The notes under the pieces are model-generated. The model worked only from the letters and a program-made list of their open reading frames with translations. It had not been told where the DNA came from and made no database searches. A DNA stretch of 48,257 nucleotides, taken from assembly GCA_030602585.1 (NCBI GenBank), contig JAUVZJ010000010.1, forward strand, positions 1-48,257, read 5' to 3'. The stretch is from Candidatus Methanophagales archaeon. GTDB lineage: Archaea; Halobacteriota; Syntropharchaeia; Alkanophagales; Methanospirareceae. This document shows, in pieces, positions 14,947-31,877 of the stretch. A program made the translations under genes and the position numbers. How positions within the stretch are numbered: the stretch's first letter is position 1; each line of letters opens with the position of its first letter.

Positions 14947-17271
14947 ATGGAAAATAAGGACGAACATATGGACTTCCTCGATTCCGGAGTCCTTGCACCG
15001 TTCAAGAAGTGGGCGACGAAATGGAGCCTGTGGCCTGTTCATTTTGTAACATCGTGCTGTGGCGTTGAGCTTGCGCATGCTTTTGGATGTGGCTATGATG
15101 GAGAGCGGATAGGTGCCTTGAATTTCGGTATCGCCCGACAGACGAATTTTATAGTGGTTGAAGGCACGATAACGAGGAAAATGGCAAGGGCGCTGAGGCA
15201 GGTCTGGGAGCAGATGCCCGACCCGAAGTTTGTGTCCGTAATAGGTGCATGTGGCGAACGAGGAGGAATATTCTGGAATGGCTATAACATCATTCGCCCT
15301 TATGACGTAGTTCCAGTGGATTTTTTCGTGCCTGGCTGTCCATCAACTCCTGAAGGTATTTTAAGAGGTGTAAGGGCAGTTCAAGATAAGTTAGACGGTA
15401 AAGATAGAACAACAATAGAATTTAAGAATGTGGGATTGCCCTCTGAAGAAGGAAAGGAAAACAGGGTTCCCACTACTCCAAAGATATATTCACCCACACC
15501 TGCGATTAAAGTGGACGTTCGCAGAGATGCAGATTGGGGCACCGGGAAGGAACTTGTGGAGCGGCTAAAGGGTGAACTGAACGGTCTTTATAAATCTATT
15601 ACTATTACAGGCAAGAATAGAATAGCCATTAAGACGACAACAGAGAACGTAGCAGAGATTGCGAGTAAGATGAGCAATGGGGTGGGCATAGACCACGTGA
15701 AGAACGTGAATGTAATAGACGTCCCGCATGAGAGGAAGATGATAGTGGAGTACATGGCCTCAAGCTATGCAGTTAAGGAATTTATGCCTGTTCTTATAAC
15801 CATTTTCGCAGATATAAGAAGAGACGAGTGCAAATTCCCAAGTCTTACGCAATACTGGGAGAATGCGGATTATTCCGAGAGGGAGATGCATGAATTCTTC
15901 GGTGTTTGGTTTGAAGGTAATAGCGAGATGGGCAGGAAATTCCTTTTAGCTCCTGATACGCCTGAATTCCCGCTTAGAAAGGATTTTAAGCTTAAAGAGG
16001 AGATGTATGCCTTTGAAGAAGGGAAGGTTGTTCCTTCCGGTATCTCAGCCAAACCGGCAACTGAGATTTCAGAACTGCCGCTGCCACTTCCAGAAGGATT
16101 TCTGGAGGATGCAGAGAACAGTGATGAGCTCGTTGTGCTGGTTGGACCACACCATCCGGGCAGTGGACATGCCAGATGGGTCGTTCGGTTGAAGGGAGAT
16201 ATAATAACCGAGGTGCTTCCCGACGTCGGATATGTTCACAGGTCAATGGAGAAACTTGCAGAGAACCGGCTTTACATTCAGAACATCCCATTGTTTGAGC
16301 GCGCTTCGATAACTGATTTTGGCAATATCAACCTCGGGTATGTGAGAGCGATAGAGAATGCGCTTGGGATAGAAGTACCTGAAAGAGCGAAGTATATAAG
16401 GACGGTTATAGCGGAAGTGAGCCGAATAAGTGCGTTTTTTTATGATTCCGCAATCGCAGCTATGATGCTCGGGCATTCTACGGGGTTCATGTATGCGTTT
16501 GCGCTCCGTGAAATGATTGTTGAACTGGTAACGAGGATGACGGGAGCGAGGATAACTGCATCGTTCATCGTTCCAGGCGGTGTGAGAAGGGATATTCCAG
16601 CGGATGTGCTTGAAACGGTGGGTAATCTTCAGTCTGCCGTCCAGAAAAGGTGGAAGAAGTTTGAGGATATATTCATAAACAACCCGGTGACAATCGCGCG
16701 ATTGAAGGGTACTGGTGTGTTAACGAAGGAGGAAGCGATAAAATATGGCGTGGTAGGACCGTTCTTGAGAGCATCGGGTGTTGAATATGACGTGCGGAAG
16801 GTAGAACCATACGAGGCTTATGACCGGCTTAATTGGGACGTCCCGATAAGCGATGACGGCGATGCGTTATCACGATTCTTGGTGAGAGTGGAGGAGATGA
16901 AGCAGAGTTTGAGTATTATAAGACAGGCAGTGGATGCATTAAAAAATATGAAGGGTGGTGTTCTGAGTGAAGAATTGCTGGGCGATTATAAAGATGCTTC
17001 GACTGACATAAGGGGGTACTTTTACAGGGTTTTTGGTGACATAGTAATTCCGAAGGGCGAATGGACTTCTATTACCGAAGCCGCTCGGGGTTCACTGATA
17101 TACAGCCTGATAAGCGATGGGGAATCAAATGTTCCTTACCGTGTCAGGATAGTAACGCCGAGTTGGCTAAATCTGAAAGGTTACATGGAATCACTCAAAG
17201 GGAGCAGGTTAGCAGACCTTCAGGCATTATTCCAGACATGGGGTTATTTCCCGCCTGAGGCGGATAGATAG
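14947..17271 (+). CDS. fqoBCD: Fused F420H2 dehydrogenase subunit B/C/D
   Basis: One uninterrupted 774-residue frame carries three peripheral subunits. Residues about 1-165 are NuoB, with TSCCGVEL (Cys37, Cys38), GACGERGG and PGCPSTPEG supplying the N2 [4Fe-4S] ligands. About 180-360 are NuoC, ending in REMHEFFGVWFEGN and PLRKDF. About 390-774 are NuoD, with GPHHPGSGHARWV, DVGYVHRSMEKLAENR, VRAIENALGIEVPERA and the end GYFPPEADR. Fusion of C and D is known, for example in E. coli, and a C/D fusion is reported for Archaeoglobus; a B/C/D fusion is rarer. The D part lacks extensive insertions. No internal ribosome-binding site or stop was seen at the joints. The product bridges electron entry to the quinone site. 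Confidence 0.92.
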   Translation: MENKDEHMDFLDSGVLAPFKKWATKWSLWPVHFVTSCCGVELAHAFGCGYDGERIGALNFGIARQTNFIVVEGTITRKMARALRQVWEQMPDPKFVSVIGACGERGGIFWNGYNIIRPYDVVPVDFFVPGCPSTPEGILRGVRAVQDKLDGKDRTTIEFKNVGLPSEEGKENRVPTTPKIYSPTPAIKVDVRRDADWGTGKELVERLKGELNGLYKSITITGKNRIAIKTTTENVAEIASKMSNGVGIDHVKNVNVIDVPHERKMIVEYMASSYAVKEFMPVLITIFADIRRDECKFPSLTQYWENADYSEREMHEFFGVWFEGNSEMGRKFLLAPDTPEFPLRKDFKLKEEMYAFEEGKVVPSGISAKPATEISELPLPLPEGFLEDAENSDELVVLVGPHHPGSGHARWVVRLKGDIITEVLPDVGYVHRSMEKLAENRLYIQNIPLFERASITDFGNINLGYVRAIENALGIEVPERAKYIRTVIAEVSRISAFFYDSAIAAMMLGHSTGFMYAFALREMIVELVTRMTGARITASFIVPGGVRRDIPADVLETVGNLQSAVQKRWKKFEDIFINNPVTIARLKGTGVLTKEEAIKYGVVGPFLRASGVEYDVRKVEPYEAYDRLNWDVPISDDGDALSRFLVRVEEMKQSLSIIRQAVDALKNMKGGVLSEELLGDYKDASTDIRGYFYRVFGDIVIPKGEWTSITEAARGSLIYSLISDGESNVPYRVRIVTPSWLNLKGYMESLKGSRLADLQALFQTWGYFPPEADR

Positions 17272-26648: not shown

Positions 26649-26749
26649 ACGAAAATTTAAAAATTACATAGCGGTTAGTGCTGGCTATAGTCCAGCGTAG
26701 ATTAATAGGATAAAAAATAGAATAAAAATATAGCGAGGTGAGCATGCAC

Positions 26750-28393
26750 ATGGCAGGACAATTAGGTGGGATACCTATATTAATATTGAAGGAAGGTGGT
26801 GAAAGGACAAGAGGGAGGGAGGCACAGAGTGCGAATATAACTGCGGCGAAAGCAGTTGCTTCTGCTGTTCGTACCACACTGGGACCAAAAGGGATGGATA
26901 AAATGCTTGTGGATTCCCTTGGTGACGTGGTTATAACAAACGACGGTGTGACTATCCTCAAGGAGATGGACATAGAGAGCCCGGCAGCGAAGATGATGGT
27001 GGAAGTAGCGAAAACCGTGGATGAGGAAGCCGGGGACGGCACGACAACCTCCGTGGTTCTTGCTGGAGAACTGCTAAAGAAGGCGGAGGACCTCCTGGAC
27101 CAGGAATTACATCCTGCGGTAATCGCAATGGGCTATAGACTTGCGGCAGAGAGAGCGAGAAAGGTGCTGGATGAAATCGCAATGGATATAAAGATAGAGG
27201 ATGAGGCAGAACTGAAGAAAATAGCAAAAACTGCGATAACCGGAAAATTCGCTGAGGTTTCTCGTGATTTCCTCGCGGAGATTGCGATAAAGGCGGATAA
27301 GGCGATAGCAGAAGAAACTTCTGACGGCAAAAGAGTGATTGACGTGGATAACATAAACATGGAGAAGAAAGTAGGCGGTAGAATAGGAGATACAGAGTTA
27401 GTGCAGGGGATGGCAATAGACAAAGAGATAGTGCATCCCGGGATGCCAATGAAAATAGAGGATGCGAAAATAGCGTTGATTAATGCTGCGCTGGAGGTAA
27501 AGAAAACAGAGATTGACGCAGAAGTAAAAATAAGGTCATCAGACCAGCTAAGAAGTTTCCTTGCGGAAGAGGAGCGAATGATGCGGCGGATTGCGGAGTG
27601 CATAAAAGAAAGCGGTGCGAATGTCGTGATATGCCAGAAGGGGATAGACGACGTGGTGCAGCATTATCTCGCGAAGGAAGGGATTATTGCGGTAAGAAGG
27701 GCGAAGAAAAGCGATATGGAAAAGCTGGAAAAAGCAACCGGTGCTAAAATAGCGAGTAACGTGGAAGAAATGAGTGAAAGCGATTTAGGGTATGCCGGAT
27801 TAGTAGAGGAGAGGAAGATAGCAGGGGATAAGATGTTGTTTATAGAGGAGTGTGAGAATCCACATGCAGTGTCCATTGTGATAAGAGGCGGGACAGACCA
27901 TGTAGTAGATGAAGTTGAGCGGTCTTTACATGATACGCTTCGTGTGGTGGGAAGCATAATCGAGGATGGAAAAGCAGTTGCTGGTGGTGGAGCAGTGGAA
28001 ACGGAGCTGGCACTGCGAATACGGGAATACAGTGCGTCGCTAAAAGGAAGGGAGCAGTTAGCGGTGGAGAAATTCGCAGAGGCGATGGAAATAATACCCC
28101 GAACGTTAGCGGAAAATTCCGGACTCGACCCGATAGACAAGTTGGTAGAGTTGAAAGCCGCGCATGAAAAAGGCAAAAAGAATGCTGGCCTGGACGTTTA
28201 TACCGGTAAAATCGTTGATATGTGGCAACGAGGCGTGATAGAGCCACTGAGAACAAAACGACAATCGGTGGATTCAGCAGTAGAGGCGGCAATGATGATT
28301 ATCAAGATAGACGATGTGATAGCGTCGAAGCGAGGAGCACCTCAAGCACCTCCACCCGGTGGTGGAATGCCGGGCGGTATGCCGCCATACTAA
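26750..28393 (+). CDS. thsA: Thermosome (group II chaperonin) subunit
   Basis: 547 residues from the ATG at 26750, chosen because GAGGTGA lies 8 nt ahead; a GTG at 26738 and an ATG at 26744 are in frame but overlap or crowd that site. All group II landmarks are intact: [21 protein letters not shown] with catalytic Asp65, GDGTTTSVV (95-), [20 protein letters not shown] with Asp395, GGGAVETEL and the GGMPGGM tail. The protein forms ATP-driven double-ring folding chambers. It is divergent from lysC. A second, divergent chaperonin-family gene lies less than 2 kb downstream on the other strand. Confidence 0.95.
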
Positions 28394-29468: not shown

Positions 29469-29657
29469 ATGACCCATATCGAAATAAATCCCAAAATCTT
29501 ATGCGGGAAGCCTGTGATAAAAGGAACGAGAATACCTGTATATTTGATATTAGAGCTCTTAGCTGCAGGATATGACTTCGAGAGGATAATGGAAGCCTAT
29601 CCAGACCTGAAGAGAGAGGACATAGAAGCGGCGATAGAGTACGCCTCGGGGGTCTAA
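29469..29657 (+). CDS. DUF433 antitoxin-like protein
   Basis: 62 residues with the complete DUF433 pattern: INPKILCGKPVIKGTRIPVYLILELLAAG, then YPDLKREDIEAAIEYA. These winged-helix proteins are usually paired with DUF5615/PIN-like toxins, as here. GGGAGGAGAAATAAA precedes the ATG. Confidence 0.9.
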   Translation: MTHIEINPKILCGKPVIKGTRIPVYLILELLAAGYDFERIMEAYPDLKREDIEAAIEYASGV

Positions 29658-29684
29658 GGGTGAAGAGGTTATAGAGGTCGAAGC

Positions 29685-30035
29685 ATGAAATTCCTTGTGG
29701 ATGAGAATATCTCTCACCGCACTCTCAAGTTTTTGAAGGAGCTGAGCTACGATGTGAAAGGTGTCCCAGAACATCTAAAAAGGTCTGATGACGAAAACAT
29801 TATAAGTCTGGCAATTGAGGAAGACCGATTTGTGATAACTTTAGACATCGATTTCGGTCGGATTTACTATTTTTCTAGGAGAGAAGAAGTCGGAATAATT
29901 GTTTTAAGAGTCCGTTTGCCGACCGTTGAACGAGTCAATCAGGTGCTTGAGAAATTTTTAGGAACGGTAAACTTGGAAGAGTTAGGCAAGTGTTTAATTA
30001 TATTAGATGAAAAGAAGTTTAGAGTAAGAAGATGA
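29685..30035 (+). CDS. DUF5615 PIN-like toxin
   Basis: 116 residues. FLVDENISHRTLKFLKE and FVITLDIDFGRI are the conserved acidic motifs of the DUF5615/Mut7-C-like PIN superfamily, presumed RNases. It follows the DUF433 gene by 27 nt, the usual toxin-antitoxin layout. It looks intact and full length. Confidence 0.88.
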   Translation: MKFLVDENISHRTLKFLKELSYDVKGVPEHLKRSDDENIISLAIEEDRFVITLDIDFGRIYYFSRREEVGIIVLRVRLPTVERVNQVLEKFLGTVNLEELGKCLIILDEKKFRVRR

Positions 30036-30119: not shown

Positions 30120-31877
30120 CTACTTGTATTTCAATCTTCCACCTTTAAATTTGAACTCTGGCGGATTCCGCTCTGTTTCTATTAATTCTCGTGTTCTGCC
30201 CGAAATCTGTGAGTCGATATCCGCCGCCTCTTTCGCTACTTCACTCTTTGCTATATGCAAATCATCTATTTTTATCATTCCGGTAGCGGCGCCAGCAGCA
30301 GATATAAGAGCCTGCAATTTCACCTGCAACGGGTCTATTATTCCCTCATCCACCATGTCCTTCACCTTCTTGTCACTTCCTGATATACCAGCATTTTTAT
30401 TGCCCGCGTAATGCTCAGCTCGCAGCTTTGTAAGCGTATCAATCTGGTCCATTCCGCTATTCTTCGCTATTGCCTTCGGTATAGACTCCAGAGCGTCTGC
30501 AAAAGCATCTACTGCCAGTTGCTCCTTACTGGGTATAGTTCTTGCGAATTTTCTTAGCACAGCGGCGCATTCTGTTTCCACGGCACCACCACCTGGCACT
30601 ACTCTGTTGTCATCAAATAAACGAGCAACAGCGTGTAAAGCGCTCTTTATCTCGCCCACCATACCTTCTAAAACCCTGATAGACGCGCCTCTTATAATTA
30701 TCGTAGAAGTTTTCTTATACGGACATTGCTCAAAAAATACGTATTTGTCACCGCCTATTTCTCGCTGCGTTACTCTTCCTGCAAAGCTTAATTTATCTTC
30801 GCTCAGGTCACTCACGTCTTTCACTATCTTACCACCTGCTGATTTCTCCAGCCGCTTCAAGTCCGTTAACTTCACACGTTTCATCAGCATTACCCCCGCT
30901 CTTCGGAACTTATCCAGCGCATCATCATCCACACCCCAGCGACAGCAAACCACGTTTGCACCTGATTTTATTACGGGGTCTATGAGTTCATCGAAAAGCT
31001 TCGTTCTTGCCTCCCGGAACTCGCGGAAATGAGTTGGTTTTGAAAAAGTAACGTGAAAATCAACGGCACCAAGCGTTTCACCGGCTTTGCTTCGTTCTCT
31101 TGCCGCTGTTCCTGTTGGCAGCTCCTTCCTACCTTTTACTTTTGGCTCCTTATGTTCAAGGGGGAAATCAAGTAGAGCTATCTTTGCGTTCTCCACTTCT
31201 GTTGGCAGCTCATCCAGAACGTGCCTGTCCACAACAACGCCTTCGGAAAAACTCGTCTCTTCTACCCTTCCTCCTGCTTTTGCCTCTATTAATACATCGT
31301 CCACATCTATCGGCAGCTCGCCGCTTTCGCTTACCCTTTTTATGCTCTTCACTATCGCATCTACTAATTTATCCTCGTCACAATAATCGCTTCTCTTAAA
31401 TGCTGTCTTCGCCACTTTATTCAAATATTCATCGCTTTCTCTTATCTCCACCGGTGAGGCTATATCACTTAAGACCTCTTTCGCCCTCTCCAGTGCCTTC
31501 TCATAGCCCCGCACAATCACATTTTGATGTATTCCTATGTTTTTCAGTTCAAATCCACGCCACACCAGCTCACCGGTCAGAATCATAACCGTAGCTATGC
31601 CATCTCCTACCCTTTCACCTTGTGTTATCCCTGCGTTTATCAATACGTCAACAGCAGGATGCATGTATTTCAATTCCCTTACTATGGTGTATGCGTTACT
31701 GGTTACGAGGTCCTCAATTTCCCCTTTTGTGGCTCCACTGGTTATCAATTTTTTCGACCCAAGAGGACCGATAGTGGATTTGAACATGTCAGAAAAAGTA
31801 ATAGAAACCTGAGCATTGGTTTCCTGAATTTCATCCGGCGGCACTTCCCCCGGCGGCAACTCCTCCTTTATTGTCAT
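30120..31877 (-). CDS. Divergent group II chaperonin paralogue lacking two catalytic aspartates
   Basis: 585 residues, aligned throughout to the thermosome gene nearby: equatorial (FSDMFKSTIGPLGSKKL), ALLDFPLE, apical (GANVVCCRWGVDDDAL) and [17 protein letters not shown]. Catalytic features differ. TNDGVTIL has become TSNAYTIV, so the GroEL Asp52 equivalent is Asn61. LHDTLRVV has become LHAVARLF, so the Asp398 equivalent is Ala416. GDGTTTS has become GDGIATV, keeping one Asp. The GGM tail is replaced by a basic tail, FKFKGGRLKYK. Nucleotide binding may persist but hydrolysis should be crippled. It might be a structural or regulatory subunit of mixed rings, or a stand-alone client binder. The frame is otherwise clean, so selection appears to maintain it. 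Confidence 0.88.
   Translation of the reverse strand: MTIKEELPPGEVPPDEIQETNAQVSITFSDMFKSTIGPLGSKKLITSGATKGEIEDLVTSNAYTIVRELKYMHPAVDVLINAGITQGERVGDGIATVMILTGELVWRGFELKNIGIHQNVIVRGYEKALERAKEVLSDIASPVEIRESDEYLNKVAKTAFKRSDYCDEDKLVDAIVKSIKRVSESGELPIDVDDVLIEAKAGGRVEETSFSEGVVVDRHVLDELPTEVENAKIALLDFPLEHKEPKVKGRKELPTGTAARERSKAGETLGAVDFHVTFSKPTHFREFREARTKLFDELIDPVIKSGANVVCCRWGVDDDALDKFRRAGVMLMKRVKLTDLKRLEKSAGGKIVKDVSDLSEDKLSFAGRVTQREIGGDKYVFFEQCPYKKTSTIIIRGASIRVLEGMVGEIKSALHAVARLFDDNRVVPGGGAVETECAAVLRKFARTIPSKEQLAVDAFADALESIPKAIAKNSGMDQIDTLTKLRAEHYAGNKNAGISGSDKKVKDMVDEGIIDPLQVKLQALISAAGAATGMIKIDDLHIAKSEVAKEAADIDSQISGRTRELIETERNPPEFKFKGGRLKYK

Follow-up and report, generated by a model that had tools for sequence, protein, structure and literature searches.

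What does a chaperonin do once the residues that hydrolyse its ATP are gone? The question is raised by a gene of an ANME-1 (Methanophagales) archaeon (genome of 2.05 Mb, 92.7% complete), situated in a stretch of 48,257 nucleotides that we refer to as the window. Of the three group II chaperonin genes in the genome, two encode intact thermosome subunits, one on contig 5 and one in the window (26738–28393, plus strand), and the third encodes the paralogue considered here (30120–31877, minus strand, stop codon included), a protein of 585 amino acids for which an original prediction, made from the sequence, proposed that both aspartates required for hydrolysis had been replaced. The 585-codon frame, described there as intact, is indeed open from ATG to stop. 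The window thermosome subunit, used as the reference, scores 819.5 bits against the thermosome_beta model (cut-off 400) and probably starts at the ATG at 26750; the two genes are tail-to-tail neighbours. Between them lies a gene pair with DUF433 and DUF5615 domains (29469–30035), by its domain pairing a probable module of the toxin–antitoxin type. Further away in the window, a 774-amino-acid frame (14947–17271) matches the NuoB, NuoC and NuoD (FpoC/D-like) models consecutively, as an apparent B–C–D fusion, and adjoins NuoL/M/N-like genes.

Judged by sequence and predicted fold, the pseudo-chaperonin, as we call the paralogue, is a group II chaperonin homologue that has kept the three-domain (equatorial–intermediate–apical) architecture. 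It matches the Pfam family Cpn60_TCP1 with an E-value of 1.7e-129, and its predicted structure (mean pLDDT 83.5, based on a deeper alignment than the 22 clade sequences, which alone gave a poor model of residues 1–92) reaches Foldseek TM-scores, normalized to target length, of up to 0.93 against Mm-cpn and the T. acidophilum thermosome. The best matches, both by sequence in a search of the PDB and by fold, are archaeal thermosome subunits. Among the NCBIfam thermosome models, the alpha model gives 428.8 bits (cut-off 450), the subfamily model 408.9 (cut-off 671.1) and the beta model 409.5 (cut-off 400). The protein is no closer to any CCT (TRiC) subunit class than to thermosomes: these models (409–429 bits) outscore the CCT models (212–274 bits).

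In GroEL, the gamma-phosphate of ATP is contacted by D52, G53, T89, T90 and D398 and the magnesium ion by D87 (PMC8440773), and the water attributed the role of nucleophile sits between D52 and D398 (PMC10723157). The counterpart of D52, Asp65 in the window thermosome, is Asn61 in the pseudo-chaperonin (31695–31697, minus strand), as the original prediction had it. Across 50 full-length orthologues, members of what we call clade P, this position is occupied by Asn (45), Ser (3) or Lys (2), whereas in 81 other group II sequences it is Asp in 80 and a gap in one, and is never replaced. For the second aspartate (GroEL Asp398, Mm-cpn Asp386, window-thermosome Asp395), the prediction had pointed to Ala416 (30630–30632, minus strand), which faces Val399 of the thermosome and not the catalytic residue. 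An ungapped alignment anchored on the GGG that follows places Ser412 (30642–30644, minus strand) opposite Asp395, and a comparison of the 50 orthologues with 63 ordinary thermosomes gives the same pairing (Ser412 with Asp395, Ala416 with Val399). The motif had thus been read four residues out of register, but the absence of an aspartate at the position stands: it is Ser in 48 orthologues and Asn in two, and is replaced in only four of the 81 other group II sequences. Chance is excluded as an explanation for the double loss, because all 50 orthologues lack both aspartates and the other group II sequences nearly always have them. The central claim, that both hydrolysis aspartates are replaced, is upheld in the form of Asn61 and Ser412.

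The rest of the gamma-phosphate shell has changed as well. Where thermosomes have GDGTTT, the pseudo-chaperonin has GDGIAT (residues 91–96; 31590–31607, minus strand), again as predicted; the magnesium-binding Asp87 is kept as Asp92, while Thr89 and Thr90 have become Ile94 and Ala95. Thr89 survives in a single orthologue (Ile or Val in 49) and Thr90 in two (Ala or Ser in 48), and the Gly53 position is Ala in 43 of the 50. The nucleotide-sensor loop around Mm-cpn Lys161 (residues 158–165; 31383–31406, minus strand) is shortened, with Gly160 deleted in all orthologues; in 19 of the 50, Lys161 has a different residue or none opposite it, in a part where the alignment is loose. Mutants of this loop have low ATPase activity (PMC5220055). 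By contrast with these losses, Gly32, Pro33, Gly86-Asp87-Gly88, Gly414, Gly415, Asn473 and Gly475 (the Asn and first Gly of NxGxD) are invariant in the 50 orthologues, and position 495 is Asp or Glu. As aligned, then, the clade P pocket has lost its gamma-phosphate shell and retained the shell that holds the nucleotide. ATP hydrolysis has very probably been lost, and the combination argues for nucleotide binding without hydrolysis. The nearest experimental likeness is Mm-cpn D386A, which lacks the same aspartate and binds ATP with no hydrolysis possible (PMC5019054), although that mutant carries a single engineered change in a normal subunit and clade P lacks nearly the whole gamma-phosphate shell.

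An ATPase that works through other residues might be sought in Asp77, a clade-specific residue that is 94% conserved in clade P and Lys in thermosomes, and the retained nucleotide-holding residues would suit such an enzyme. The gamma-phosphate threonines and the sensor loop, however, have gone along with both aspartates, and we consider residual activity of this kind very unlikely. We know of no precedent in the chaperonin fold for ATP hydrolysis through such residues.

The same losses recur throughout a conserved clade, which is the check that the original prediction had proposed together with an estimate of dN/dS. With a clade profile, orthologues were recovered from 47 of the 51 ANME-1-family genomes (59–95% identical to the pseudo-chaperonin over full length) and, outside that family but within the class, from five of seven genomes (three families, with 2/2, 1/1 and 2/2). 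No orthologue turned up in single genomes of two further families of the class or in some 250 genomes sampled from the rest of the phylum; clade members, long fragments included, score at least 676 bits and everything else at most 465. The four ANME-1 genomes without a copy are 75–85% complete and belong to genera in which other genomes have the gene, and these gaps may reflect assembly loss. One record, L037 (DYFG01000145.1), bears the name Candidatus Nitrosotalea and is an ANME-1 contig, apparently from a misnamed or misbinned MAG. In the sequence tree, clade P is monophyletic and of single origin, set apart from the other sequences by a branch supported at 100/100; its grouping with divergent paralogues of the same class (Q1–Q3) has moderate support (93/88) and involves long branches.

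Within ANME-1, omega is 0.09–0.17 for clade P, and the same pairs of genomes give 0.06–0.16 for the thermosome gene next to it (Nei–Gojobori pairwise estimates, five genomes); the columns that are at least 90% conserved number 231 in clade P and 212 in the thermosomes compared. By these measures, clade P is under strong purifying selection and is not decaying; absence from relatives with relaxed selection, the outcome that had been named as counting against the prediction, is not what is seen. A decaying paralogue or pseudogene would account for one observation, the faster change of clade P at deep distances (apical-domain identity in distant pairs of 54%, vs 70% for thermosomes). It is refuted by the open frames of the retrieved copies and an omega of about 0.1, and the 231 conserved columns and the retention of the gene even in genomes of 1.0–1.3 Mb likewise speak against it, so that we regard decay as having next to no chance of being the explanation. 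That clade P is a conserved, hydrolysis-dead paralogue we hold with high confidence. A role in defence was considered and rejected, as PADLOC gave no match for the paralogue; no relatives of it were found in viral contigs.

If the protein is kept but does not hydrolyse ATP, the next question is whether it still sits in a ring. In group II chaperonins, an intra-ring sheet combines the two terminal strands (N and C) of each subunit with the hairpin of the next, and a DxxGD loop has been described for all human CCT subunits (PMC9113939; PMC5473854). The N-terminus of the pseudo-chaperonin (residues 1–20, MTIKEELPPGEVPPDEIQET; 31818–31877, minus strand) stands in place of the thermosome N-terminal beta-strand (PILILKEG). 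Its residues 3–20 have a mean identity of 89% within ANME-1, residues 1–9 are predicted to be disordered, and the strand is absent from all clade P lineages inspected, which carry ELPPGEVPPEE or a similar sequence instead. The stem-loop (residues 43–60; 31698–31751, minus strand) lacks the thermosome DSLGD motif and is four residues longer; throughout the clade P lineages inspected, the DxxGD loop is absent and the hairpin is longer or altered. At 17% identity between clade P and thermosomes, the stem-loop is among the most different regions, and its identity within clade P is 63%, vs 91% within thermosomes. The C-terminal strand is still recognisable (MIKIDDLHIAK), so ring assembly may still be possible.

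Beyond that strand runs an extension (residues 540–585; 30123–30260, minus strand) of about 40 residues in ANME-1 and shorter elsewhere, which ends in a conserved basic motif, GGRxKY. The original prediction was right that the GGM tail has given way to a basic one; in the pseudo-chaperonin it ends GGRLKYK, the motif plus one Lys. A second addition, the lid insert (residues 244–273; 31059–31148, minus strand), adds some 30 residues where the lid begins. It is basic, largely predicted to be disordered (residues 250–273; pLDDT of about 40), complete only in members of the ANME-1 family and without similarity to any PDB chain. Its mean identity is 84%, vs 73% for the whole protein, and a disordered segment more conserved than the protein that carries it suggests that the insert contains a binding motif.

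These interfaces bear directly on two rival explanations. In the first, the pseudo-chaperonin would enter mixed rings alongside both intact thermosome subunits, where a permanently slow or ATP-locked member would alter cooperativity or create an asymmetric client-binding side, a role resembling one proposed for the unequal subunits of CCT. The predicted full chaperonin fold of clade P and the presence of intact thermosomes in the same genomes fit this explanation, and some P-loop point mutants of one T. acidophilum thermosome subunit still join mixed rings (PMC5983026). However, two elements of the intra-ring sheet, N-terminal strand and DxxGD hairpin, are missing from the lineages inspected, the stem-loop has diverged from that of the thermosome to the extent given above, and clade P does not form an operon with a thermosome gene. 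For these reasons the poisoned subunit in mixed rings, one of the roles originally suggested, is not the one that we favour; it is the chief rival, possible though somewhat improbable. In the second explanation, clade P would assemble into a ring or partial ring of its own, fixed in one state, and only hold clients. Its subunit contacts could have changed in concert as the clade diverged, with which the count of conserved columns (231 against 212 in thermosomes) is compatible, but the lost elements of the intra-ring sheet weigh here too, and we think a homo-oligomeric holdase distinctly unlikely.

Another point for mixed rings comes from sister lineages. In three genomes from other families, a divergent paralogue, Q1, which keeps Asp52 and has no equivalent of Asp386, lies directly downstream of Q3, divergent but intact, on the same strand (L095:1053-4344, L097:997-3601 and L098:3-3074); the Asp386 position is Cys in L095 and Thr in L098, and the region is cut off in L097. 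This conserved adjacent pair of an intact and an Asp386-less subunit suggests that dead subunits can partner live ones in the class, and it counts as a point against a role outside the ring. A separate, very divergent group II chaperonin of 602 amino acids in a related genome (L094:863-2668) carries Arg where Asp386 would stand and Asp in place of Lys161. A wider reading is that, in the class to which ANME-1 and the Syntrophoarchaeum-type alkane oxidisers belong, group II chaperonins expanded into a CCT-like set of six or more paralogues (P, Q1, Q2, Q3 and two ordinary thermosomes). The hydrolysis-dead P and Q1, the latter next to the intact Q3, would work with live subunits in hetero-oligomers, and ANME-1 would have kept only P beside the ordinary subunits. 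We offer this reading as a speculation that is unlikely to hold in full; if true, it would mean that archaea came independently to divide chaperonin work between subunits that cycle with ATP and subunits that do not.

Gene neighbourhoods might be expected to name a partner or a client. Among 25 contexts, clade P has no fixed neighbour gene, and an operon partner is rejected on that ground; the neighbours include genes for a chloride channel and for TtuA-like, CBS and antiporter-like proteins, besides others, all unrelated (the CBS and antiporter-like genes named from their sequence). Five ANME-1 genomes have a thermosome gene no more than about 4 kb from the clade P gene, a further point against a role outside the ring, but the two are tail to tail and so cannot form an operon. 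A dedicated assembly factor for MCR was also considered. All seven genomes of genus g6, within ANME-1, keep clade P, yet six of them (G006, G017 and G042–G045; 73–96% complete) show no McrA match, and in family f6 McrA-like genes are present and clade P is absent. A dedicated MCR assembly factor is rejected on this distribution, and the client of clade P is probably not MCR, since most g6 genomes keep the gene yet show no McrA.

The reading that we prefer, and to which we give an even chance of being correct, is that the pseudo-chaperonin is a nucleotide-holding, non-cycling client binder or adaptor that probably works outside the ordinary ring position. From its sequence, the protein would bind nucleotide and neither hydrolyse it nor respond to the gamma-phosphate. 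No such response would mean no open–closed folding cycle, and the absence of that cycle is what points to a static role. A particular client would be held, or passed to the thermosome, through the apical domain, the lid insert and the tail.

No description of clade P was found in the freely searchable literature, and several known systems resemble it in part. Thermosomes (Mm-cpn, T. acidophilum alpha/beta and Thermococcus KS-1) share its full-length fold, domain order and nucleotide-holding residues. Unlike them, clade P lacks both catalytic aspartates, the gamma-phosphate threonines, the sensor loop, the N-terminal strand, the DxxGD hairpin and the GGM tail, and has a basic tail and, in ANME-1, the lid insert. 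Divergent paralogues retained beside an intact chaperonin are also found in chlamydiae, as GroEL2 and GroEL3; these are group I proteins, and the NCBIfam GroEL2 model matches the pseudo-chaperonin weakly. Lineage-restricted, divergent group II paralogues likewise occur in a Methanosarcina genome with two extra chaperonins (the fourth and fifth, L152 and L153), which we take to be that of M. acetivorans. The gene count agrees (PMC5220055). These proteins keep all three aspartates and are separated from clade P by the 100/100 branch, and orthology with them is rejected. The closest likeness in kind is to MKKS/BBS6, BBS10, BBS12 and CCT8L, whose ATP motif retains its Gly-Pro and whose hydrolysis motif has changed or can no longer be recognised (PMC2846930); clade P, too, retains the Gly-Pro with an altered hydrolysis site. 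The parallel with degenerate CCT-like proteins drawn in the original prediction is thus apt, but it is probably one of convergence: thermosome models outscore CCT models, and clade P is archaeal and sits, with moderate support, among archaeal paralogues (in a tree without BBS sequences), which makes common descent with the eukaryotic CCT8/BBS lineages unlikely and their origins apparently independent.

Dead or divergent group II paralogues have so far been a eukaryotic story (MKKS, BBS10, BBS12 and CCT8L), and clade P indicates that archaea came independently to this kind of specialisation among chaperonin subunits. With the gamma-phosphate shell gone and the nucleotide-holding shell intact, its pocket is a clean natural experiment, and the clade offers a small prokaryotic system in which to ask what the chaperonin fold does without its ATPase, a question that bears on how uncultured methane oxidisers handle their proteome.
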